Part shown: positions 1,794 through 12,832 of the stretch, in pieces
Layout of the letters: each line of letters starts with the position of its first letter
Numbering within the stretch: position 1 is the stretch's first letter
DNA from: a virus
IMG/VR virus record: IMGVR_UViG_3300032245_000086
Coordinates: 1 to 20,944 of that record
Strand: one strand, 5' to 3'
Length of the DNA: 20,944 bases
Program-made: the position numbers and the translations under genes
The notes under the pieces: generated by a model
What the model was told of the DNA's origin: nothing
The model's input: the letters and a program-made list of their open reading frames with translations, nothing else
Databases searched by the model: none

Positions 1794-2059
1794 TGCCAGG
1801 TACTGCTGGTAGCACATTGTGCGCCGAACTAAACCGCTTAGCCAATGGTGGAACCTACCCAGCAAGAACAGCATTCCTTGATGAACAAGGTGCTGCCAAT
1901 AAGTGGGCTGGCACTACAGGTAAAGCCATAATCGGCGCTTTGAATTACAAAGCAAGTTCATCTCGTACACCTGATGCTTTCAAGGACTTGAATGGAATTT
2001 GCAACGAACTTGCTGGAACAACTGGAAAATCTGCCTCTGATGCATTAAGGACTATATAG
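1793..2059 (+). CDS. Small virion-region protein, unknown
   Basis: This is an 88-residue protein without a recognised family. It contains an internal repeat: ANKWAGTTGKAIIGALN and CNELAGTTGKSASDALR share the pattern LxAGTTGKxxxxAL, each preceded by a helix. This looks like two copies of a short helical unit. The gene overlaps the glycosyltransferase stop by one base and the next gene's GTG start by one base (TAGTG), so it is co-translated with the head-tail adaptor candidate. A minor structural or connector-associated role is plausible from context only. Confidence 0.7.
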   Translation: MPGTAGSTLCAELNRLANGGTYPARTAFLDEQGAANKWAGTTGKAIIGALNYKASSSRTPDAFKDLNGICNELAGTTGKSASDALRTI

Positions 2060-2991
2060 TGACAACTACCCTTACCAATATGATTGATGAGGTTGCGGTA
2101 AACCTTGCGGGATACACATTCCAACAAGACCGTTCAACCTATCTAGCATCTGCCGTTACTACAACTACATCTACAAGCGCTTCCCCGCTTATCTTGAGCC
2201 TTGGCTCTACCGATAACGTAGGTAAGGGTGTCATTGAAATTGACGAAGAACTAATGTGGGTTGACTCCTATGACCGCGTTGCTAACACAGCAACCGTTGC
2301 TCCATACGGACGTGGCTACCTAGGTACAACTGCTGCTACACACGCTGCAGATACACGAGTGGCTATCAGCCCTACCTTCCCACGCTTTAATCTTAAGCGA
2401 GCAATCAACGATACTATCCGCGCCCTTGGCGCTAACATCTTTGCTGTTAAGTCAACAACCTTTACATTTAATGCTGCGGTGTCTACCTACGCATTTGCAG
2501 ACTTAAACATCAAGAATATCTTGACTGTTACTTGGCAGTCAATTGGTCCATCTAAAGAATGGATTCCACTTCGTAAGTGGGACTTTGATTCAATCGCTAA
2601 CGCAGCAGCCTTTGGTTATACAACTGAACAGGTTCAGACAATTACATTGGGCGAAGCCCCTATCTCTGGTCGTACGGTAAAGGTTACTTATGCTACAGAC
2701 CCAGCAGCGTTTACAACTAATGCTCAGGACTATGTAGAACAAACAGGCTTACCAGAATCAACGCGGGACGTTGTGATTCTTGGCGCAGCCTACCGCTTGC
2801 TCTCATTCCTAGACCCAGCACGTGCTGCTCAAGTTAGCCCACAGGCTGATGAGACAGATAGCAAGCGCCCATATGGTGCAAGCCAGACAGCAACTAAACA
2901 ACTTTATGCTTTGTACTCACAGCGCCTTGCTGAAGAAACAAAAGCACAACAACAGAATTATCCACCCAAAGTCCACTACTCAAGACGATAG
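2059..2991 (+). CDS. Head-tail adaptor / connector-like virion protein
   Basis: This 310-residue protein starts with GTG inside a TAGTG overlap. Residues about 50-110 form a small beta module (VIEIDEELMWVDSYD, then GRGYLGTTAATHAADTRV). The same pattern (valine strand, EE-V-V, RG-x-x-G, A-H-x-A-G-x-V-V) appears again in the next gene. The middle is beta-rich with Trp/Tyr, and the C-terminal ~70 residues are helical (DVVILGAAYRLLSFLDPARA... ending PKVHYSRR). This layout and position fit a neck or adaptor protein between portal and tail. The family is not identified with certainty, and a general structural protein is the fallback call. Confidence 0.6.
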   Translation: MTTTLTNMIDEVAVNLAGYTFQQDRSTYLASAVTTTTSTSASPLILSLGSTDNVGKGVIEIDEELMWVDSYDRVANTATVAPYGRGYLGTTAATHAADTRVAISPTFPRFNLKRAINDTIRALGANIFAVKSTTFTFNAAVSTYAFADLNIKNILTVTWQSIGPSKEWIPLRKWDFDSIANAAAFGYTTEQVQTITLGEAPISGRTVKVTYATDPAAFTTNAQDYVEQTGLPESTRDVVILGAAYRLLSFLDPARAAQVSPQADETDSKRPYGASQTATKQLYALYSQRLAEETKAQQQNYPPKVHYSRR

Positions 2992-3000
2992 GTATCAGCA

Positions 3001-4545
3001 ATGACAACTAGAAAATATTCCTCCCGCTCGCAGCAGACCACACTGACTGGTGCTCTTACCTCATCTGGTACATCAGCCACAGTAGTATCTGGTACAGCGC
3101 TCCTTGGTGGTGTAACAATCTCTGCTGGTGAAATCTTCACAGTAGTAATTGACCCAGATACAGCCCTTGAAGAAATTGTAGATGTCAGTGCCGTAAGCAC
3201 TAACACTCTTACAATTGCTCGCGGTATTGATGGTTCATCTGGACAGGCTCACTCCGCTGGTGCGGTAGTTCGCCATATGGCTATTGGTAGAGATTACCGC
3301 GAAGCCAACACCCATATTGAAGCAACAACAGGACACGGTGCAACTGGAGCGGTAGTTGGTACAACCAACACTCAGACTCTGACTAACAAAATTTTAACCA
3401 CTCCTACAATTACTAGCCCAACCATTACTGGTACAGGCGCTATTGCTGGAACCTTTACTGGCAACCTGACAGGTAACGTAACAGGCAATGTAAGCGGTAC
3501 ATCTGGTTCTACCACAGGTAACGCAGCAACAGCCACAGCCCTTGCTACAGGGCGTACAATCAGCCTTGCAGGTGACTTGAGTGGTACTTCTGCATCATTT
3601 GATGGAACCGCAAACGTAAGCATCACAGCAGCAATTGCTTCTAACACAATCGTAGATGCAGACATCAACGCATCGGCTGCTATCACAGCCACAAAGATTG
3701 CTGGAACTGCCGTAACTCAGGCAGATACTGGCACAGTCACTAGCACAATGATTGCCAACGGAACTATCGTAGATGCTGATGTTAATGCCTCTGCTGCCAT
3801 TGCTCGCACAAAGATTGCTAACCCAACAGCAGATGTATCTAATGGTGGCTTCAAGATTACAAGCCTTGGCACACCAACACTAGATGCGGATGCTTCAACT
3901 AAGGCTTATGTAGATACCTCTATTGCTAACCTTATTGCTGGGGCTCCTAGCACACTTGATACCTTGGATGAGATTGCTGCAGCCTTGGCTGATACAGCAA
4001 ACTTCTCAGATACGGTAGTACTCAAGACTGGTAGCACAATGTCTGGCAACCTTGCTATGGGAACTAACAAGGTAACTGGACTTGGTACTCCAACTACATC
4101 TACAGATGCTGCTACTAAGGGCTATGTAGATACAGTCACAGTTGCACCTAGCAACTTAACTGGTCCTATTACCTCTGTGGGTGCAGCAACTAGCGTTGCA
4201 GCCCAGACTGGTACTGGTTCTACTTTTGTAATGAATACAAGCCCAACGCTTGTAACTCCAGTTCTTGGTGTGGCTACTGCTACATCTATCAACGGAACTT
4301 CTATTCCAGCCAGCAAGACTCTTGTGGCTACAGACTCAACAGCATTTGTTGTACCTAGCCAGACTGGTAACTCAGGCAAGTATCTAACTACAAATGGAAC
4401 AGTATCTTCTTGGGGAGCAGTTGATGCCCTACCAAGCCAGACAAGTAACGCAGGAAAATATTTAACCACAGACGGAACAACCGCTTCGTGGGCAACAGTA
4501 ACCACCGACCCAACAGCCGACATTTTTATGATGATGGGCGCTTAA
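3001..4545 (+). CDS. Long repetitive tail fibre protein
   Basis: This 514-residue Thr/Ser/Gly/Ala-rich protein is organised like a trimeric fibre. The N-terminal ~100 residues carry the beta module shared with the preceding gene, ending in RDYREANTHIEATTGHGATG, a probable attachment region. Then come fibre-forming repeats: TLTNKILTTPTITSPTITG, the TGNLTGNVTGNVSG triplet-like run, and two copies of a VDADxNASAAIxxTKI unit. Two copies of GTPTxxxDAxTKxYVDT flank a GAPSTLDTLDEIAAALAD segment typical of phage fibre shafts. The C-terminus has two copies of PSQTxNxGKYLTTxGTxxSW. It probably forms the shaft of the host-recognition apparatus, with the small beta proteins downstream as candidates for its tip. 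Confidence 0.88.
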   Translation: MTTRKYSSRSQQTTLTGALTSSGTSATVVSGTALLGGVTISAGEIFTVVIDPDTALEEIVDVSAVSTNTLTIARGIDGSSGQAHSAGAVVRHMAIGRDYREANTHIEATTGHGATGAVVGTTNTQTLTNKILTTPTITSPTITGTGAIAGTFTGNLTGNVTGNVSGTSGSTTGNAATATALATGRTISLAGDLSGTSASFDGTANVSITAAIASNTIVDADINASAAITATKIAGTAVTQADTGTVTSTMIANGTIVDADVNASAAIARTKIANPTADVSNGGFKITSLGTPTLDADASTKAYVDTSIANLIAGAPSTLDTLDEIAAALADTANFSDTVVLKTGSTMSGNLAMGTNKVTGLGTPTTSTDAATKGYVDTVTVAPSNLTGPITSVGAATSVAAQTGTGSTFVMNTSPTLVTPVLGVATATSINGTSIPASKTLVATDSTAFVVPSQTGNSGKYLTTNGTVSSWGAVDALPSQTSNAGKYLTTDGTTASWATVTTDPTADIFMMMGA

Positions 4546-4568: not shown

Positions 4569-4889
4569 ATGGCAAAAAAAGTACTTGGGCAAATTAACCC
4601 ATCAGCAACAACTGCAACAACTCTATACACAGTTCCATCTGCTAAGTCAGCAGTTATCTCATCTCTTACAATCTGTAACCAAGCATCTACTGCTGCAACG
4701 TTTCGCGTTGCTGTACGTCCTGGTGGTGCAACCTTGGCTGCTGTTCACTATGTAGCCTATGACGTTGCTGTAGGTGCTGCAGATACTACTGCTCTTACTC
4801 TAGGCATCACACTTGCTACTACAGATGTGGTAACTGTCTATGCTTCTACTGCAAACATCTCATTCCACGCCTACGGAGACGAGTCCTAA
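4569..4889 (+). CDS. Small beta-rich tail-associated protein
   Basis: This is a 106-residue protein with a good Shine-Dalgarno, AAGGAG at 4555-4560, eight bases before the ATG. The sequence alternates hydrophobic and Thr/Ser residues (TTLYTVPSAKSAVISSLTIC, then FRVAVRPGGATL). This predicts a compact beta sandwich ending in NISFHAYGDES. Proteins with the LYTVPxxxxAVISSLxIxN pattern are frequent next to phage tail fibres, as I recall, probably as minor fibre or decoration components. Its stop is directly followed by the TTG start of the first array member. No enzyme motif is visible. Confidence 0.72.
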   Translation: MAKKVLGQINPSATTATTLYTVPSAKSAVISSLTICNQASTAATFRVAVRPGGATLAAVHYVAYDVAVGAADTTALTLGITLATTDVVTVYASTANISFHAYGDES

Positions 4890-5486
4890 TTGTCTATAAC
4901 TAGAGCAAAGACCTCTAGTATTGCTCAGGGTCCTTCAACTAATAGAAACCTTCTCGCTGGCAATCCTGTCATCCTTGGCGGAAGTTACGAGTCTATTGAG
5001 ACTATAACCGTTGGCGCAGGTGGCGCAGCCAGTGTTACTTTTAGCAGTATTGCGACTGACTGGAAGCACCTACAAATTAGAGGCATAAGCCGTTCTACAG
5101 ACTCAGCCGCTTACACTCAAACTAAACTAACAATAAATGGTGTTACAACTAATTACACCTTGCACCAACTTTTTGCAGACGGCTCAGCAGCAAGCGCTTA
5201 TGCATTAACTGGACAAGCCAGTACACAGTTTGAGGCTATGACCGCAGATACCGCAACTGCCAGCATTTACGGCGTTACAATAATTGATATTTTAGATTAT
5301 CAGTCCACTAATAAATATAAGACTTTCCGCATATTGGCTGGTTACGATGCTAACGGCTCAGGGCGTTTGGCTCTTTCATCAGGTATGACAACCACAAACA
5401 CAAATGCGGTTACTTCAGTTACTTTAACTCCCCGCTTTGGCAACTTTAAGCAATACTCATCCTTCGCTCTGTATGGCATAAAATGA
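4890..5486 (+). CDS. Tail array protein A1 (beta-rich, ends YGIK)
   Basis: This 198-residue member of a six-gene paralogous family ends at 8966. The TTG start directly after the upstream stop is supported by the opening MSIT, the same as its closest relative at 7388. Family landmarks are AASVTFSSIATDWKHLQIRG near residue 55 and the closing SSFALYGIK. Subtype A markers are KHLQIRGISR, a central DILDYQSTNKYKTFR and a following GYDANGSG. No catalytic residues are evident, and the Ser/Thr/Ala-rich beta pattern fits a carbohydrate-binding or fibre-tip sandwich. Its stop overlaps the HNH gene start (ATGA). Confidence 0.78.
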   Translation: MSITRAKTSSIAQGPSTNRNLLAGNPVILGGSYESIETITVGAGGAASVTFSSIATDWKHLQIRGISRSTDSAAYTQTKLTINGVTTNYTLHQLFADGSAASAYALTGQASTQFEAMTADTATASIYGVTIIDILDYQSTNKYKTFRILAGYDANGSGRLALSSGMTTTNTNAVTSVTLTPRFGNFKQYSSFALYGIK

Positions 5487-5941
5487 CAACAGCAACCATA
5501 TCTCCTTGGAATAAAATTAGTGATGTCTGCTTGTTTGATAACTGTGGCAAGAAACATTCCGCTAAAGGTTTCTGCTCAAAGCATTACCGCGCTTTTAAGG
5601 CTTGGCTAGACAAAGACCGCAGAACAGAAATGCAGTCACAGCAGAAGCCAGCAAAAGATAAAGATAGTTATGTCTTGCTTTATATGCCATCACATCCTAA
5701 CTGCGCTGTTAGTGGTGGTTATGCAGAACACCGCTTGGTTATGGAACAAACACTTGGGCGTTTGCTAGAAAAGAATGAAAATGTCCATCACAAGAACGGT
5801 GTCAGAAATGACAACCGTCCAGAGAATTTAGAACTATGGTCAAGTCGGCAACCTAAAGGACAACGGGTAGAAGATAAGGTGGAATACGCAATGGAAATAT
5901 TAACCCAATACGCACCACATCTTTTAGCAGGTGATAAATAA
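5483..5941 (+). CDS. HNH homing-type endonuclease 1
   Basis: This 152-residue protein is predicted to cut DNA at a specific site. The N-terminus carries a zinc-binding pattern C16-x4-C21-x3-H25-x5-C31-x2-H34, ending FCSKHYR. The nuclease core is AEHRLVMEQTLGR followed by NVHHKNGVRNDNRPENLEL, with the His pair at 103-104 and the Asn residues of an HNH_3-type site. The C-terminal QRVEDKVEYAMEIL helix is shared with the second copy at 6441. The gene sits seamlessly between two array members, with a 4-nt overlap upstream and a 1-nt overlap downstream. This is typical of free-standing homing genes that insert between conserved phage genes. Confidence 0.92.
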   Translation: MTTATISPWNKISDVCLFDNCGKKHSAKGFCSKHYRAFKAWLDKDRRTEMQSQQKPAKDKDSYVLLYMPSHPNCAVSGGYAEHRLVMEQTLGRLLEKNENVHHKNGVRNDNRPENLELWSSRQPKGQRVEDKVEYAMEILTQYAPHLLAGDK

Positions 5942-6438
5942 TGGCTAAAACTTATGAACCGATAGCAACTAATACGCTCGGCAGCGCAACTGCTACCGTT
6001 TCTTTTTCTAGTATTGCAGCAACTTATACAGATTTAGTATTAGTAGTTAGTCATTTGGGTACTTTGGCTACAGCCGAAGCAAAAATACAATTTAATGGAG
6101 ATACAGCAACCAATTATTCGTGGACTCAACTTTACGGAAATGGTACAAGCGCGGCAAGTTATAGAGCCTCTAGTGTTAGCAGCATACCTTTACTTCCAAA
6201 TGAAGCATCAAGCACAACTGTTCCAAGTGCAATTATTGTAAATATACAAAACTATGCAAATGCTACAACTTTCAAGACTGTAATTTATAGGGGAAGTGTT
6301 ACAAGTTTAGCAACCAGCGCAAATGTTGGTTTATGGCGTAAAACTCCAGAAGCAATAAACTCCATTACTGTTTTTACACCAGTTTCAACTTTTGCGGCAG
6401 GCTCAACCTTTACCCTATACGGAATTAAGTCCGCTTAG
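5941..6438 (+). CDS. Tail array protein B1 (ends YGIKSA)
   Basis: This 165-residue family member starts MAKT, as does its nearest relative at 7960. It has the family block ATVSFSSIAATYTDLVLVVS and the closing STFTLYGIKSA. Subtype B markers are TDLVLVVS, a central NIQNYANATTFKTVIYRGS and ANVGLWRKTPEAINSITVF near the end. These align with MDYANTTTNKTILLRAS and ARVGLYRSTAAISSISLF in the gene at 7960. The start shares a base with the HNH gene stop. It is probably a small beta sandwich on the tail tip; the ligand is unknown. Confidence 0.78.
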   Translation: MAKTYEPIATNTLGSATATVSFSSIAATYTDLVLVVSHLGTLATAEAKIQFNGDTATNYSWTQLYGNGTSAASYRASSVSSIPLLPNEASSTTVPSAIIVNIQNYANATTFKTVIYRGSVTSLATSANVGLWRKTPEAINSITVFTPVSTFAAGSTFTLYGIKSA

Positions 6439-6440
6439 TC

Positions 6441-6878
6441 GTGTTACTATTAGATATGCCAAGAGGACAATTTAGTAAATACGCACATTGCACAATAAGT
6501 GATTGCACTAAACCACACCGTGCCAAAGGTATGTGCCAAATGCACTACCGCCGAAATCGTCTTTACAAAGACCCAACAGTTGTTATGAATGTTGGGATTA
6601 AAAAAGACAAAGGTGGGTATGTCCAAGTAAGGACAGTTGCTGGCAATGGCAAAGAAGGTAAATATACCTATCAGCATCGCCTAGTAATGGAACAGATGAT
6701 TGGCAGAGCCTTAGTAAAAGGCGAGACAGTTCATCATAAGAATGGAATTAGAAACGACAATCGCCCAGAGAACTTAGAACTTTGGTCAGAGGCTCAACCA
6801 TACGGGCAGAGAGTAGAGGACAAAGTGGCATACGCTATAGAGATTCTCAAACAGTACGCACCTGAGAGGTTGGCTTAA
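6441..6878 (+). CDS. HNH homing-type endonuclease 2
   Basis: This 145-residue protein (from GTG; an in-frame ATG at 6456 would give 140) is a sister of the HNH gene at 5483. The zinc motif has identical spacing, C17-x4-C22-x3-H26-x5-C32-x2-H35. The core TVHHKNGIRNDNRPENLEL is nearly the same, and it shares QRVEDKVAYAIEILKQYAP at the C-terminus. The middle differs more (a GGYVQVRTVAG segment here), as expected where target recognition varies. It lies between array members B1 and C1 with gaps of two and zero bases. The pair probably arose by duplication and moved to a neighbouring, related target. Confidence 0.9.
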   Translation: MLLLDMPRGQFSKYAHCTISDCTKPHRAKGMCQMHYRRNRLYKDPTVVMNVGIKKDKGGYVQVRTVAGNGKEGKYTYQHRLVMEQMIGRALVKGETVHHKNGIRNDNRPENLELWSEAQPYGQRVEDKVAYAIEILKQYAPERLA

Positions 6879-7391
6879 ATGGCATTCACATATAGCAAAC
6901 TAGTTGAGACAACTCTTAGCAGTTCAGCAGCAACTGTTACCTTAAACAACATCCCGCAAAACTATACCGATTTGAAGATTGTAATTTCATCTCGTTCAAG
7001 TGCTGGTGGTAGTCCTTGGTCAGATATTATCATTACTCCAAACGGCTCAACTACTTCAATTAGTACTAGAGTTTTATATGGAACTGGTTCTGCTGCAGCA
7101 TCTGGAACTTTTACTACTGGTATTCCAGCGGTGGGAGAAGGCAATGTTGGAACTGCTAGCACTTTTGGTAATGCAGAAATTTATATTCCAAACTATACTT
7201 CTAGTAACTTCAAATCATTTTCGGCAGATTCTGTTTCTGAGAACAATGCAACATCATCTCTTGCACAAATAGGTGCAATGCTTTGGTCCAACACATCAGC
7301 AATTAGTTCATTAACATTTACTGATTTTAATAGTGGTTCATTTGTACAGCACTCAACCTTCAGCCTCTACGGAATACGGATAGAACTATGA
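6879..7391 (+). CDS. Tail array protein C1 (ends YGIRIEL)
   Basis: This is a 170-residue family member. The shared block is AATVTLNNIPQNYTDLKIVI and the shared end is STFSLYGIR. Subtype C markers are TDLKIVISSRSS, a long Gly/Thr/Ser middle, then AEIYIPNYTSSNFKSFSADS and GAMLWSNTSAISSLTF. These align closely with CDIYIPNYASANNKSISVDA and AGLWSNTAAITSLSL in the gene at 8463. The ATG directly follows the HNH stop. The stop overlaps the next ATG by 4 nt, so this end of the array is uninterrupted. Confidence 0.78.
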   Translation: MAFTYSKLVETTLSSSAATVTLNNIPQNYTDLKIVISSRSSAGGSPWSDIIITPNGSTTSISTRVLYGTGSAAASGTFTTGIPAVGEGNVGTASTFGNAEIYIPNYTSSNFKSFSADSVSENNATSSLAQIGAMLWSNTSAISSLTFTDFNSGSFVQHSTFSLYGIRIEL

Positions 7392-7960
7392 GCATAACTA
7401 AACTAACCACCAACGGTTTAACAGGCAGCAAGTACGACACCGTATCTGCTGACAACTACTATATGGAGCCGATTGCTACTACGTTGCTAGGAACTACTGC
7501 ATCTAGTGTTACCTTTAGTAGTATTCCTGCTGGATATAAGCATCTGCAAATTAGAGGTATATCAAGAATTACAAGCGGCTCTTATGCTCAAGTAGTGTAT
7601 CAACTTAATGGAGATACAGGGTCTAATTATTCACGCCATTATCTTTTTGGCGATGGCGCAAGTACGGGTGTTGCTGGAACTGCATCAACTACAAATATGT
7701 TTGGTGGCATAATGTCAGGTTCAAGTCAAACTGCAGGAATTTTTGGTGCATTAGTAACAGACATCTTAGATTATTCAAACACATCAAAAAATAAAACCAT
7801 ACGTACATTATCTGGTGTTGATGGAAATGGAAGCGGATATGCTTGGTTTTCATCAGGAGCATACTTATCAACCTCTCCTATTACTTCTGTAACAATTATT
7901 CCAGAATCAAGTACTTTTACCGCAAACTCCCGTTTCTCACTGTTTGGAGTAAAAGGCTAA
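7388..7960 (+). CDS. Tail array protein A2 (ends FGVKG)
   Basis: This 190-residue protein is the second copy of subtype A. It opens MSIT like A1 and shares SSVTFSSIPAGYKHLQIRG followed by ISR. It also has TDILDYSNTSKNKTIRTLSG and GVDGNGSG, and the close SRFSLFGVKG. The first ~40 residues before the shared block differ from A1. In the middle, LNGDTGSNYSRHYLFGDGAS corresponds to INGVTTNYTLHQLFADGSAA of A1. The start overlaps C1 by 4 nt and the stop overlaps B2 by one base, with no endonuclease between them here. Confidence 0.78.
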   Translation: MSITKLTTNGLTGSKYDTVSADNYYMEPIATTLLGTTASSVTFSSIPAGYKHLQIRGISRITSGSYAQVVYQLNGDTGSNYSRHYLFGDGASTGVAGTASTTNMFGGIMSGSSQTAGIFGALVTDILDYSNTSKNKTIRTLSGVDGNGSGYAWFSSGAYLSTSPITSVTIIPESSTFTANSRFSLFGVKG

Positions 7961-8463
7961 TGGCTAAGACTGCTACCTATTCGCTGATTGCAAGTTATAC
8001 CCATAGCGGGGCAAGCACCACTACAATTACTATGTCTTCAATACCTGCAACATTTACTGATTTGGTTGTTGTATCAAATGTGCTTTACTCAGCCAACAAT
8101 GGCGACTATATGTCTTGGAGAATGAATGGAGACTCTAGCGCTCTTTACTCCAGTACTCCAGTGGTAGGCACAGGTACAGCGGCAGAATCATTCAGAGCAA
8201 CTAACGGAACTCAAATTGCTTTTTATGGTTCATCAACAACTAATTATGTTCCTTCCATTACCAATTTTATGGACTATGCCAACACAACTACAAATAAAAC
8301 CATTTTACTAAGGGCTTCAGGCGCAGGAAATAGCGTTGAAGCCAGAGTTGGTTTATATAGAAGCACCGCTGCAATCAGCAGCATTTCTTTGTTCTTTCCT
8401 GTGGCATCTATAGCAGCAGGAACTAACATTAAAATCTACGGGATACAGGCAGGTAACGCATAA
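7960..8463 (+). CDS. Tail array protein B2 (ends YGIQAGNA)
   Basis: This 167-residue protein is the second copy of subtype B. I place the start at the ATG in the TAATG overlap at 7960, because it gives MAKT as in B1. An upstream ATG in this frame would only add residues encoded out of frame within A2. Shared blocks are TTITMSSIPATFTDLVVVS, FMDYANTTTNKTILLRAS, ARVGLYRSTAAISSISLFF and the close IKIYGIQ. The latter part VASIAAGT corresponds to VSTFAAGS of B1. It is presumably an adhesion-tip component. Confidence 0.78.
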   Translation: MAKTATYSLIASYTHSGASTTTITMSSIPATFTDLVVVSNVLYSANNGDYMSWRMNGDSSALYSSTPVVGTGTAAESFRATNGTQIAFYGSSTTNYVPSITNFMDYANTTTNKTILLRASGAGNSVEARVGLYRSTAAISSISLFFPVASIAAGTNIKIYGIQAGNA

Positions 8464-8966
8464 TGCCACTACAACTATATAAGATTGGCTCTGTAGAAGT
8501 TGGCTCTGCTGGAGCAAGCAATATTGACTTCACCTCCATACCTCAGGGTTATAGTGATTTGAAATTGGTAGTATCAACACGTGGAACATCTGGGACCTCT
8601 GTTGGTGGACACGTATTTTATATACGCCCCAATAATTCTAGCGCTAATGGAAGCATCCGCTACCTAGTGGGAAATGGTGTAACCGCATCTTCTGGCACTG
8701 ATACCTCAATCCAAGGGGCAGGAAATGCTTCTGATTGGACAGCAAACACATTTGGTTCTTGTGATATTTATATTCCTAATTATGCCTCTGCAAATAATAA
8801 ATCAATCTCTGTTGATGCAGTAGGAGAAAACAATGGAACGGATACAAGAATAATTTTGTATGCTGGTCTTTGGTCTAATACGGCAGCAATCACTTCTTTG
8901 TCTTTAGTTCCTTACGCAGGAACTTTTGTTCAATACACAACAGCAACACTTTACGGTATCCTCTAA
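8463..8966 (+). CDS. Tail array protein C2 (ends YGIL)
   Basis: This 167-residue protein is the second copy of subtype C and the last array member. Shared blocks are SNIDFTSIPQGYSDLKLVVS followed by TRG, CDIYIPNYASANNKSISVDA, ENNGTD, GLWSNTAAITSLSLVPY and the close TTATLYGIL. It overlaps B2 by one base and is followed by a 16-nt gap with a purine-rich ribosome binding site. As with the others, the fold appears all-beta and no enzyme residues stand out. Confidence 0.78.
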   Translation: MPLQLYKIGSVEVGSAGASNIDFTSIPQGYSDLKLVVSTRGTSGTSVGGHVFYIRPNNSSANGSIRYLVGNGVTASSGTDTSIQGAGNASDWTANTFGSCDIYIPNYASANNKSISVDAVGENNGTDTRIILYAGLWSNTAAITSLSLVPYAGTFVQYTTATLYGIL

Positions 8967-9245: not shown

Positions 9246-11258
9246 TTGGCGGGTAGAGATATAACCGAAGGTAGAGCCGAACGCTCTATCGCCGTTGACG
9301 TAGGTGTAGTTTCATCTACGGCTGTCTGGCAGAACACCGATATGTCTTACGACGTAGCACTTGGTGGACTTCCATTCATCTATGCAATCAGTGATGCACG
9401 TCCATACACACGTCAGACTGCACCCTTCCGTAAAGACCAGTTTGACAATGGCGCAGAGCCAGGTGAGCAATCCCTTACTGGTTGGTGGATTAGAAGTCAA
9501 GCATCGTTCCACTCTGGTTCAGGCATTAAGTTCTATGACCCTGCAACTACAGATGAGAATGGACACTATCGCTTTGCGGATAGCAAGGGGCTAGATGTTT
9601 GGACTAAGGGACAGGTAACGCTACTTAAAGATGTAGATAACAACCACATCACAACTGGAGCCATTGTTGGCACAGACCATCAGCACGTTAATCAGCACAC
9701 TCGTTCTATTCAGTATAACGGAACAAATGCTGTATTACTGCACGATGAATTTGACGTAGACAAGATTGTGCCAGGTGCATCACCTGTCCACTTTATTGAT
9801 TATATCTCTGGAACAGACCGCAAGGTATTTGCTATTTGTGATGATGGAGTCAACGTTTACTGGGTGACCAATAAGACCGTTGGCGGTAATCAGCGCCTCA
9901 CTATGTTTAAGAAGCCATTAACTGGTGATTCAACTACTGGCTCATCTAACCCATCTGCAACTGGTGACGTTACTCAGATGTTTCAAAGTGGCGATACTGA
10001 AATTTTTTATGCAACAATGGAATTTGTTAAAGATAGAATTGTACTGTGTGTAAACAATAAAGTTTACGAACTATCCACAAGTGCGACAGGTTTGCCTTCT
10101 CCTGCTTATACAAACCCTAATACAAATTATCACTATACATCAGTGGCTGCCTCTGGTCCTGCCATCTATACAGCAGGTCACTCAGGTATCTATTCAACTA
10201 TCCAGAAGTACACACTATCAACTGCTGGAGTAATGCCAACGCTAACCTCTGCAGTAGTAGCAGCAGAACTTCCCGCTGGTGAAATAGTAGAGAAGTTATA
10301 CTACTACTTAGGCTATATGACGATTGGCACTAACAAAGGTGTACGAGTTGCTACAGTATCTGACCAGGATGGCTCACTTAATTACGGTCCACTCATTGTA
10401 GAAACATCACAGCCTTGCTACGACTTTGCCGCACGCGACCATTATGTATGGTGTGCTACTGGTATTGGTGCTCTTAATGGTGGACTCATCCGTATTGACT
10501 TAAGTAATGAATTAGAAACCCTGCGCTTTGCTTGGGCTAATGACCTAGAGGTAAGCCAGACAACTGAGCATTACACGACAGCGGTAGCGTTTGTTGGAGC
10601 GACCAATCGCTTAGCGTTTGCAACAGCATATAATACAACAAATGGCGCAATCTATACAGAGTCAGACAATTTAGTTCCATCAGGTTACATAACCACAGGA
10701 AACATTCGCTACGGAACTCTTGAGCCAAAGAACTTTAAGCGTCTGCTAGGACGCGGTGACTTTACCTACGGCTCAATGACGCTAGAGACTGTAGATAAAA
10801 ATGGTGTTGAGTATGACCACATCTCTTATGATTCATCTGTTCCACCTATTGAAGTAGGTACATCTAATCCTGCTACCGCTCAAGAGTATGTAGCATTTAA
10901 GTTTATTCTTTATCGTGATGCAACAACCACATCTTCTGGTCCTACATTCAAGGGCTATCAGGCTAAGGCAACCATTGCTACTCCGCGCCAGCGTGTAATG
11001 CAGTTCCCTGTATATTGCTATGACATTGAGACTGACCGATACAACACAATGGTTGGCTATGAAGGCAGAGCCTTTGATAAGATTCAATTGCTAGAAGACA
11101 TTGAAGAAACAGGCGATGTTATTACCTGGCAAGACTTAACTACTGGTGAATCTCGCCAAGCAATCATTGAACAAATTTCATTCAATCGTATGACCCCACC
11201 TGATAAGCGCTTTGATGGCTTTGGTGGAGTCATTAACATCACTATCAGAACGGTATAA
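9246..11258 (+). CDS. Large beta-propeller-like tail protein (minor tail or nozzle)
   Basis: This 670-residue protein starts with TTG, supported by GGAGGT at 9235-9240 five bases upstream. The N-terminal region contains GLPFIYAISDARPYTRQTAP and GEQSLTGWWIRSQASFHSGS followed by GIKFYDP, blocks I associate with actinophage virion proteins. From about residue 180 to 440 there are repeated strand units (VFAICDDGVNVYWVTN, YYYLGYMTIGTNKGVRVA, DHYVWCATGIGALNGG), which look like blades of a beta-propeller. The C-terminal ~100 residues (DKIQLLEDIEETGDVITWQD... INITIRTV) form a separate beta domain. It probably forms part of the tail tube end or tail tip. The propeller reading is inference. Confidence 0.68.
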   Translation: MAGRDITEGRAERSIAVDVGVVSSTAVWQNTDMSYDVALGGLPFIYAISDARPYTRQTAPFRKDQFDNGAEPGEQSLTGWWIRSQASFHSGSGIKFYDPATTDENGHYRFADSKGLDVWTKGQVTLLKDVDNNHITTGAIVGTDHQHVNQHTRSIQYNGTNAVLLHDEFDVDKIVPGASPVHFIDYISGTDRKVFAICDDGVNVYWVTNKTVGGNQRLTMFKKPLTGDSTTGSSNPSATGDVTQMFQSGDTEIFYATMEFVKDRIVLCVNNKVYELSTSATGLPSPAYTNPNTNYHYTSVAASGPAIYTAGHSGIYSTIQKYTLSTAGVMPTLTSAVVAAELPAGEIVEKLYYYLGYMTIGTNKGVRVATVSDQDGSLNYGPLIVETSQPCYDFAARDHYVWCATGIGALNGGLIRIDLSNELETLRFAWANDLEVSQTTEHYTTAVAFVGATNRLAFATAYNTTNGAIYTESDNLVPSGYITTGNIRYGTLEPKNFKRLLGRGDFTYGSMTLETVDKNGVEYDHISYDSSVPPIEVGTSNPATAQEYVAFKFILYRDATTTSSGPTFKGYQAKATIATPRQRVMQFPVYCYDIETDRYNTMVGYEGRAFDKIQLLEDIEETGDVITWQDLTTGESRQAIIEQISFNRMTPPDKRFDGFGGVINITIRTV

Positions 11259-11259
11259 T

Positions 11260-11460
11260 ATGACAGCGCAAGACTGGGCTGCGCTCGCCGTAGCACTTAT
11301 GACTATAGTGGCTGGGTTTGCCACACTTGTACGATGGCTAGTAAAGCATTACTTGTATGAGTTAAAACCAAATGGGGGCGGTTCCGTTAAAGACCAAGTG
11401 AACCGATTGGAAGAACGAGTTGACCAAATTTACGTCCTTCTTTGCGAAAGAGAACAGTAA
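11260..11460 (+). CDS. Small membrane protein with TM helix and coiled coil
   Basis: This is a 66-residue protein from the ATG at 11260, two bases after the upstream stop; longer versions would overlap the tail gene. Residues ~5-27 ([20 protein letters not shown]) are one membrane helix. Next comes [20 protein letters not shown] and an amphipathic coiled coil ([20 protein letters not shown]). One TM helix followed by a [12 protein letters not shown] coil is a pattern I know from small proteins in actinophage lysis regions, sometimes annotated as holin-like or membrane proteins. It overlaps the next gene by 41 nt. Confidence 0.7.
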
Positions 11461-12832
11461 AAAATTAAACGTTTTATTTCTAGTGCTTGGCACATCATTC
11501 TTTTATTTACCGACAGCAAGCGCAGTAAATACTGGTCAAGTGACAATCACTTGTGCAAATGCAAGCGGAGTTGCAAGAACTAATACTGTTGGCTGGGATA
11601 ACAGCAACCAATTCTTTGCGAATAAGGGTGACATCGCCCGTCTATATTGCGAAGGTGGATTCAATGGTGACTACAGAACCTTTGTAAGTACCAGCGTTAC
11701 TGATATGTCTTTGCGTTATTACAACGGGATAGTCATAGTGGAATCTCCCACTGTTGTAGCGGAGCCTAGTCCTTCTGTAAGTCCCAGTCCTGAGTCTGTG
11801 GTTGGCGAAACTGTGACTGTTGTTTCCGATACTCAGACTGCGCCCGCTGTTGATACTTCAACGCCAGTTTTATCTGAGACCTCAACCTCCGTTGTTGATT
11901 CCGTGACTGTCGTAACTCAACAACCAGAATCACCGACAGTATCGTCAGAGACAGCGACAACAACTGAAACACAAACAGTGAACGTAACACCTGAACCTCC
12001 TATAGTTCCTGAACCTACACCTATTGTAGTGCCAGACCCACCTGTAATTAAACCAGAACCAATTGCAATTCCTGACCCTCCACCCGTGGTGGAACCAGAA
12101 CCCGAACCTTTACCTGACCCAGCGCCTGAAGTTGCGCCTGAGCCTATACCAGAGCCTGAACCAGTTCCAGAAGTAGAACCTGAACCCACTCCTGAACCTG
12201 AGCCTCCAGTCATAGAGCCAGAACCTGAAGTCATTCCAGAACCCGCTCCCGAACCTCCTGCTATTGCAGAACCAGAGCCACTTGAGCCAGAACCTGTTGA
12301 AGAAGTTGAGCAAGTTGAACCTCCTGTAGAAGAAGAAGATGCTCCTATGGTAGCAGATGAAGACGCTACAGAAGAAGAGAAGGCTGCAGTTGCTGAAGCA
12401 ATTATTGAAGCAGCCCAAGGCGAGCCAGTTACCGCAGCGGCAATAGCAGCGGCTGGGCTTACATATGCTGACCTGCCAGCAGAGACTCCTGTTGAAGTAC
12501 GTAAAGATGAAAACGGTAACGAAGTAGTTATCACAGCAGAGGTAGCAGCAGCACTTGTAATGCTTGAAAACCCCGCAGAACTCATTAGCGCAATCTTCAC
12601 TGACCCTGGGAAAGCATTGCTTGCTATCACCAGTATTGGTGCAGATATGTCAGATGAAGAACGAACAGAATCAGAACAAACAATTGTTGCAGCCGTCATT
12701 GCTGGACAGGCTGCAGTATCTGCAGCAGGTATGGCAGCAGGAGCAGCATCAGGTAGTACTGGTGGTGGTTCCTCTGGCGGGGGTGGCGGAGCATCTGCAG
12801 AATCTAAAGGCGTAAGGAGACGCAAAGAATGA
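11420..12832 (+). CDS. Secreted Pro/Glu-repeat protein with basic C-terminal tail
   Basis: This 470-residue protein starts at TTG 11420, with GGAAG eight bases upstream inside the preceding gene. Residues 1-35 are a signal peptide: basic ENSKK, a hydrophobic core [16 protein letters not shown], cleavage after ASA. A short mature domain holds C45 and C77, which could form a disulfide. Residues ~110-185 are Ser/Thr/Val-rich, ~186-300 are PEP/EPEP-type repeats expected to form a stiff extended rod, and ~300-420 are acidic and Ala-rich. The end has a weakly hydrophobic Ala/Gly stretch, a poly-Gly/Ser linker and a VRRRKE tail, resembling a stop-transfer anchor without LPxTG. It could span the cell wall to aid lysis or block superinfection. 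Function unknown. Confidence 0.72.
11986..12330 (+). repeat. PEP/EPEP-type coding repeat
   Basis: An imperfect short repeat of codons for Pro-Glu-Pro-x and Pro-Asp-Pro-Pro runs through the middle of the secreted-protein gene. Synonymous codons vary between units, so the protein repeat is selected rather than being recent DNA slippage. Its compositional bias also leaves the opposite strand open, which creates false reverse-strand reading frames. Confidence 0.8.

Follow-up and report, generated by a model that had tools for sequence, protein, structure and literature searches.

The closest described counterpart of the locus reported here is found in the Planktophila phages LanE43AprE7 and LanE43AprF5 (E7 and F5), which possess a 5 kb variable island for which the authors suggest a part in host recognition (Kavagutti et al. 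2023, PMC10202952). It contains part of the tail fiber, two collagen-like proteins, and "three proteins encoding DUF2541" (PMC10202952). Our analysis reveals that each of these isolates, which infect 'Ca. Planktophila' LanE-43, carries one set of three small proteins (A, B, and C) followed by a further small protein (s), and that this A-B-C-s cassette lies beside two glycine-rich tip proteins; in this respect the island and the present locus are alike. Subtypes, a fixed order, double sets, leaders, and the swapping of single genes do not feature in the published description (PMC10202952), and the DUF2541 match could not be reproduced in the current Pfam, which returned none for the six proteins studied here, for 73 A proteins (E ≤0.01), or for 62 B proteins (E ≤1).

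The branched tailspikes of the Ackermannviridae, such as TSP1-4 of CBA120 (PMC8825819, PMC11414711), likewise combine neighboring receptor-binding genes, N-terminal assembly segments, and exchangeable specificity parts. There every spike is separate, large, and equipped with its own receptor, whereas the present locus has three small paralogues that share a fold and occur as an all-or-none set. Furthermore, each member of a branched multi-RBP complex carries a docking segment, whereas here an N-terminal leader is present on A only. The glycine-rich adhesins of the gp38 type in T4-like phages (PP01, PMC12892980) resemble, by sequence composition only, the glycine-rich proteins that share this leader; A, B, and C, in contrast, lack this glycine-rich composition, and the fold predicted for them is a different one, all-beta. 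RBP domain shuffling (PMC10684548) is comparable as an ongoing exchange of host-recognition parts, even between phage families, but in the present case whole genes are exchanged inside three fixed slots of one set. Our search of the open-access literature found no description of a three-paralogue tip with subtypes, a double set, and slot-wise exchange. The initial annotation, which knew of no described system with this ordered repeat, was therefore nearly right: three DUF2541 proteins had been noted in two isolates (PMC10202952), while subtypes, double set, and shuffling are absent there. Already known, then, are the three proteins and the variable island; new are the non-recent double set, the sharing of one gene at a time, and the restriction of the leader to A.

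The tip module

The window, that is, the whole stretch of DNA analyzed, comprises 20,944 bases of a virus record, and its six A/B/C genes sit within the tail module, flanked by a fiber gene and a conserved tail gene (Table 1). All six open reading frames start where the initial annotation had placed them, and the sequence blocks that it used for sorting are present: KHLQIRGISR and DILDY in A, NVGLWRKT/RVGLYRST in B, and IYIPNY and LWSNT in C. Its description of six neighboring genes needs correction, since HNH genes intervene at the A1/B1 and B1/C1 borders. Nor had it picked up that A carries a leader, that a linked gene follows C, or that relatives encode glycine-rich tip proteins in the same places. 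The upstream gene u matches the SU10 adaptor family, from which we surmise that the phages of the window's group are probably short-tailed. Further downstream (11420-12832) lies a gene for a proline-glutamate repeat protein of 470 residues, for which neither PHROG nor Pfam gave a match.

Table 1. Genes and segments of the tip module and its surroundings in the window.
Feature	Position	Strand	Evidence
u, tail adaptor-like gene (context)	2059..2991	+	PF24175 SU10 adaptor protein, 1.9e-8
F, long fiber protein 5′ of the tip module	3001..4545	+	PHROG tail fiber matches; conserved anchor among relatives
P, small protein adjoining first A	4569..4889	+	PHROG tail fiber matches; leader association
A1 leader, putative position-1 docking segment	4890..4985	+	Leader comparisons
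A1, subtype A tip protein, TTG start	4890..5486	+	Alignment and tree
HNH endonuclease between A1 and B1	5483..5941	+	PF13392, 1.7e-12, above cut-off
B1, subtype B tip protein	5941..6438	+	Alignment and tree
Second HNH endonuclease, between B1 and C1	6441..6878	+	Aligns with first HNH protein
C1, subtype C tip protein	6879..7391	+	Alignment and tree
A2 leader, putative position-2 docking segment	7388..7465	+	Leader comparisons
A2, subtype A	7388..7960	+	Sequence and all-beta model, leader disordered
B2, subtype B	7960..8463	+	Sequence; 90% identity to L002 B2
C2, subtype C	8463..8966	+	Sequence and structure model
s, small charged protein after C2	8983..9216	+	Gene order among relatives
D, conserved downstream tail gene, unbiased anchor	9246..11258	+	phrog_11667, 2.2e-141

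Three types in a fixed order

The order A, B, C, A, B, C proposed in the initial annotation is borne out by the protein comparisons. Genes three positions apart are 43.2% (A1-A2), 43.7% (B1-B2), and 44.2% (C1-C2) identical, against 21.7-32.5% for every other pair in the window, and they also give the top local alignment scores (313, 268, and 329; z of 25-39 versus shuffles). FastTree and IQ-TREE both pair B1 with B2 and C1 with C2 (99-100% support) and split A1-A2 from the remaining four proteins with 84-90% support; adjacent genes are not each other's closest relatives.

Viral contigs were searched with A2, C2, B1, and D, which yielded loci L001-L019 and L023-L164; with two isolate genomes (L020 and L021) and a Streptomyces phage (L022) added, the total came to 164 loci. 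A profile search revealed 425 relatives. All 328 distinct ones group into three clades (115, 108, and 105 members), and each clade contains one of the window pairs (local support 0.91, 0.88, and 0.92). As an independent check, three models built from the window pairs alone agreed with the tree on the type of 354 of the 362 full-length relatives, and under these models the commonest readings of the arrays were ABC (57) and ABCABC (20). Adjacent pairs of genes are BC (117), AB (112), and CA (22), with AA three times and AC and CB once each, and B and C overlap by start and stop in 72 of 107 pairs. The interior arrays comprise 49 ABC, 14 ABCABC, seven A, one AAC, one AA, and one set with a shortened A, counts that are biased since most loci were retrieved by an A, B, or C query. 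In L085 (4012-4416) the A of the second set is cut to 134 residues, with leader and C-terminal end kept and the middle missing.

A fair sample is provided by 43 distinct contigs picked by D and also carrying F. Eighteen of these contain no member of the family, nine have ABC, eight ABCABC, five A, and three AA. B or C is found only within complete triads (17/17 contigs), while A can occur alone. Copy number thus changes in steps of three genes, as the initial annotation had expected, and random gain and loss of single genes, which it had considered the contrary outcome, is not what these anchor-chosen contigs reveal. Three types, one set order that holds in nearly all relatives, and all-or-none triads, present once or twice, characterize this family in viruses of freshwater actinobacteria. 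A scan of genome contigs located three further loci in MAG contigs, two assigned to an uncultured actinobacterium and one to a Polynucleobacter bin. In the Streptomyces phage JackieB, gene 29 (L022:7428-8603) encodes a larger minor tail protein with an A-type domain as its C-terminal part, and B and C are absent.

Almost all cassettes that occur singly have the s gene after C, and most double arrays end in a single s. Pfam and PHROG searches with s gave no match; its place in the gene order makes it a candidate assembly helper. A second small protein, of the MAHFAQLD type, accompanies glycine-rich proteins as s does ABC (L020:27147-27533 and similar), and both may be such helpers.

A position-specific leader on A and the origin of the double set

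The A proteins of the window begin with a leader of approximately 25-32 residues, which is absent from B and C; among the relatives its median length is 23 residues for A and 0 for B and C. Across 15 double arrays, leaders are ~0.50 (0.50-0.51) identical within a position and 0.23-0.25 between positions, while the A body is 0.41-0.44 identical in every comparison, within or between positions. Leaders adjacent to P belong to the LAGN type or its variants (22 loci), and those that directly follow F, with no P, are of another type (nine loci), the classes having been set after inspection. P is found in all relatives with a LAGN-type A leader. The two leader classes of double arrays suggest, from sequence comparison, two docking places.

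When searched as a profile, the leader model found two non-family proteins only. In pairwise comparison glycine-rich tip proteins share the A leaders: scores reach 117, whereas shuffled sequences score 48 at most, and 128 of 5,044 pairs exceed the 99.9% shuffle level, where five were expected. These glycine-rich proteins (G) also take the places of cassettes: L139 reads P-ABC-G, L020 P-G-G-ABC, and L104 P-G-G-G, and P-ABC-ABC occurs too. Since they share both leaders and places with A, one triad would correspond to one tip protein, with A responsible for docking.

The initial annotation offered duplication of a three-gene cassette as one of two readings of the double set, the other being a mixed tip with a place for each subtype. 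A recent tandem duplication can be ruled out, as the two sets of one phage (28-48% identity per slot) are no closer than random cassettes (median 43%); in the window the best local DNA match between them is 63 bp. There remains an ancestral tandem duplication of ABC that has since diverged, as opposed to the filling of a second docking place. Two like sets lying head to tail and the single s that ends most double arrays would fit such an event, the traces of which later swapping could have erased. We nevertheless consider it rather unlikely, for the sets of one phage are only as close as random ones, the A leaders differ by position, and in L139 the second place is held by a glycine-rich protein sharing its leader with the position-2 A of L163.

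Exchange of single genes

Pairs of sets were scored as close when one or more of their genes were at least 75% identical and the sets were not wholly identical (n=24). Twenty-two of these have one gene in common, one has two, and one has three, in agreement with the gene-level recombination proposed in the initial annotation. The gene held in common in the 22 one-gene pairs is A in four, B in eight, and C in ten cases, and background identity is equal for the three types (medians 0.43). The window itself provides two examples. Compared with L009, F (99%), P (98%), s (100%), and D (90%) are closely similar and the six A/B/C genes are 47-69% identical; compared with L002, B2 alone reaches 90%, with its neighbors at 51-53% and D at 50%. 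In such cassette comparisons DNA identity switches close to the gene borders.

Grouping by any common genes merged nearly all contigs, and marker genes were used instead to define backbone groups. The cassette occurs on two of these. One comprises 37 contigs that carry F or D, the other 35 contigs identified by tape-measure-linked markers. Alleles of B that are 88-95% identical are found in both groups, and one-gene matches link different backbones (L009-L059, L005-L036, and L014-L084). Distances for A, B, and C are moderately correlated (Mantel 0.44-0.52). In the tape-measure group gene ends are clearly better conserved than middles (the last 36 bases of B, for example, 79% versus 52% mid-gene). 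In the window's own group, compared without gaps, they are not, and end conservation as a property of all groups was dropped. When codons were tested for additional DNA conservation at the ends, a modest excess emerged, confined to the first codons.

Two explanations dispense with exchange between phages. Mosaics could be artefacts of assemblers jumping between strains, given that the relatives are mostly metagenome contigs, that the gene ends conserved in one group are where such jumps would be expected, and that a few matches are 98-99% identical. Most single-gene matches, however, are 80-96% identical, which indicates divergence since the exchange; some link different backbones, the contigs come from separate metagenomes, and triads are also present in the sequenced isolates L020 and L021. 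We regard this explanation as very improbable. Less credible still is descent without recombination, in which one gene of each lineage evolves slowly and the others diverge under selection. Divergent selection is common in host-recognition genes, but the conserved gene varies with the pair, all three types have the same background identity, and the genes that are alike sit on different backbones. With genes replaced singly slot by slot, specificity would be reassembled combinatorially: a gene is exchanged between viruses only for one of its own type, probably altering the range of attachable cells.

The two HNH genes of the window, which are related to each other, split the first set exactly at gene borders, the first overlapping both the stop of A1 and the start of B1. 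The first product carries an HNH_3 motif and the second aligns with it, which makes both putative homing-type enzymes. In the relatives L008, L057, and L098 HNH genes are found at different borders. We speculate that such genes might promote exchange. Upstream of position 2460 in L008, directly 3′ of an HNH gene, a position-2 A leader is present in frame without an ATG, GTG, or TTG start.

Predicted fold

The models of A2 (pLDDT 88.3, pTM 0.82) and C2 (pLDDT 91.2, pTM 0.86) are both all-beta with the same strand order, and the leader of A2 is disordered. Sequence searches of Pfam, PHROGs, and PDB gave no family assignment for A, B, or C. PDB yielded neither a sequence match nor a fold match at E ≤0.001, and its lectin-like and enzyme-domain fold matches were set aside as weak. 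Among the viral predictions of BFVD there were 104 fold matches at E ≤0.001 (best 5.9e-22), several of them as parts of fiber, collagen-repeat, or glycine-rich proteins. Judged from these models, A, B, and C share an all-beta domain of a kind that recurs widely among predicted phage fibers.

A composite tip unit or three independent tips

We propose that A, B, and C make up one composite tip unit that is docked by A and whose slots are exchanged singly by homologous exchange, a reading to which we assign a probability of about 0.6. The three paralogous all-beta proteins would form a single host-recognition unit; a part in receptor binding is suggested by their position, their variability, and their exchange with glycine-rich tip proteins. 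The A leader would dock the unit to the fiber, and B and C, being leaderless, would join either by way of A or by contacts specific to their type. The window phage would then carry two units at two docking places, each with its own A leader. Every slot would draw on its own large pool of alleles, and homologous exchange near the gene ends would replace single genes while slot identity and leader are kept.

The main rival holds that A, B, and C make no contact with one another, that each is a separate (homotrimeric) tip or decoration recognizing a receptor of its own, and that their order is simply inherited synteny. Known phage fiber tips are usually homotrimers. B and C, never A, are fused C-terminally to glycine-rich heads in L098, L121, L049, and L134, and such separate heads, like the exchange of genes one at a time, are what independent tips would lead one to expect. 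The fusions in L121, L098, and L049 accordingly fit independent units as well as a composite one, and the occurrence of A alone in some relatives, the only moderate correlation of the A, B, and C distances, and the restriction of strong junction conservation to one backbone group also count against the composite unit. Any contact between A, B, and C must moreover tolerate many partners, as the genes are exchanged singly. On the other side, B and C lack a leader, and no complete contig contains them without A; a triad occupies the position otherwise filled by a single glycine-rich adhesin, and it moves whole between unrelated backbones. On this evidence we find independent tips doubtful and favor the composite unit.

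Implications

The composite unit may be taken one step further: A, B, and C together could constitute one hetero-oligomeric adhesin mixing three independently inherited allele pools, in short- and long-tailed phages of freshwater actinobacteria. We advance this tentatively, with the odds somewhat against it. If true, a few hundred genes would give rise to a very large number of specificities. The acI actinobacteria of freshwater combine very high abundance with high microdiversity, supposedly through phage predation, and three independently swapped slots on two unrelated backbones would offer a concrete, testable route by which phages keep pace. The leader rule states which parts are exchangeable and where they belong, and a cultured host with phages carrying the cassette already exists in LanE-43 with E7 and F5.
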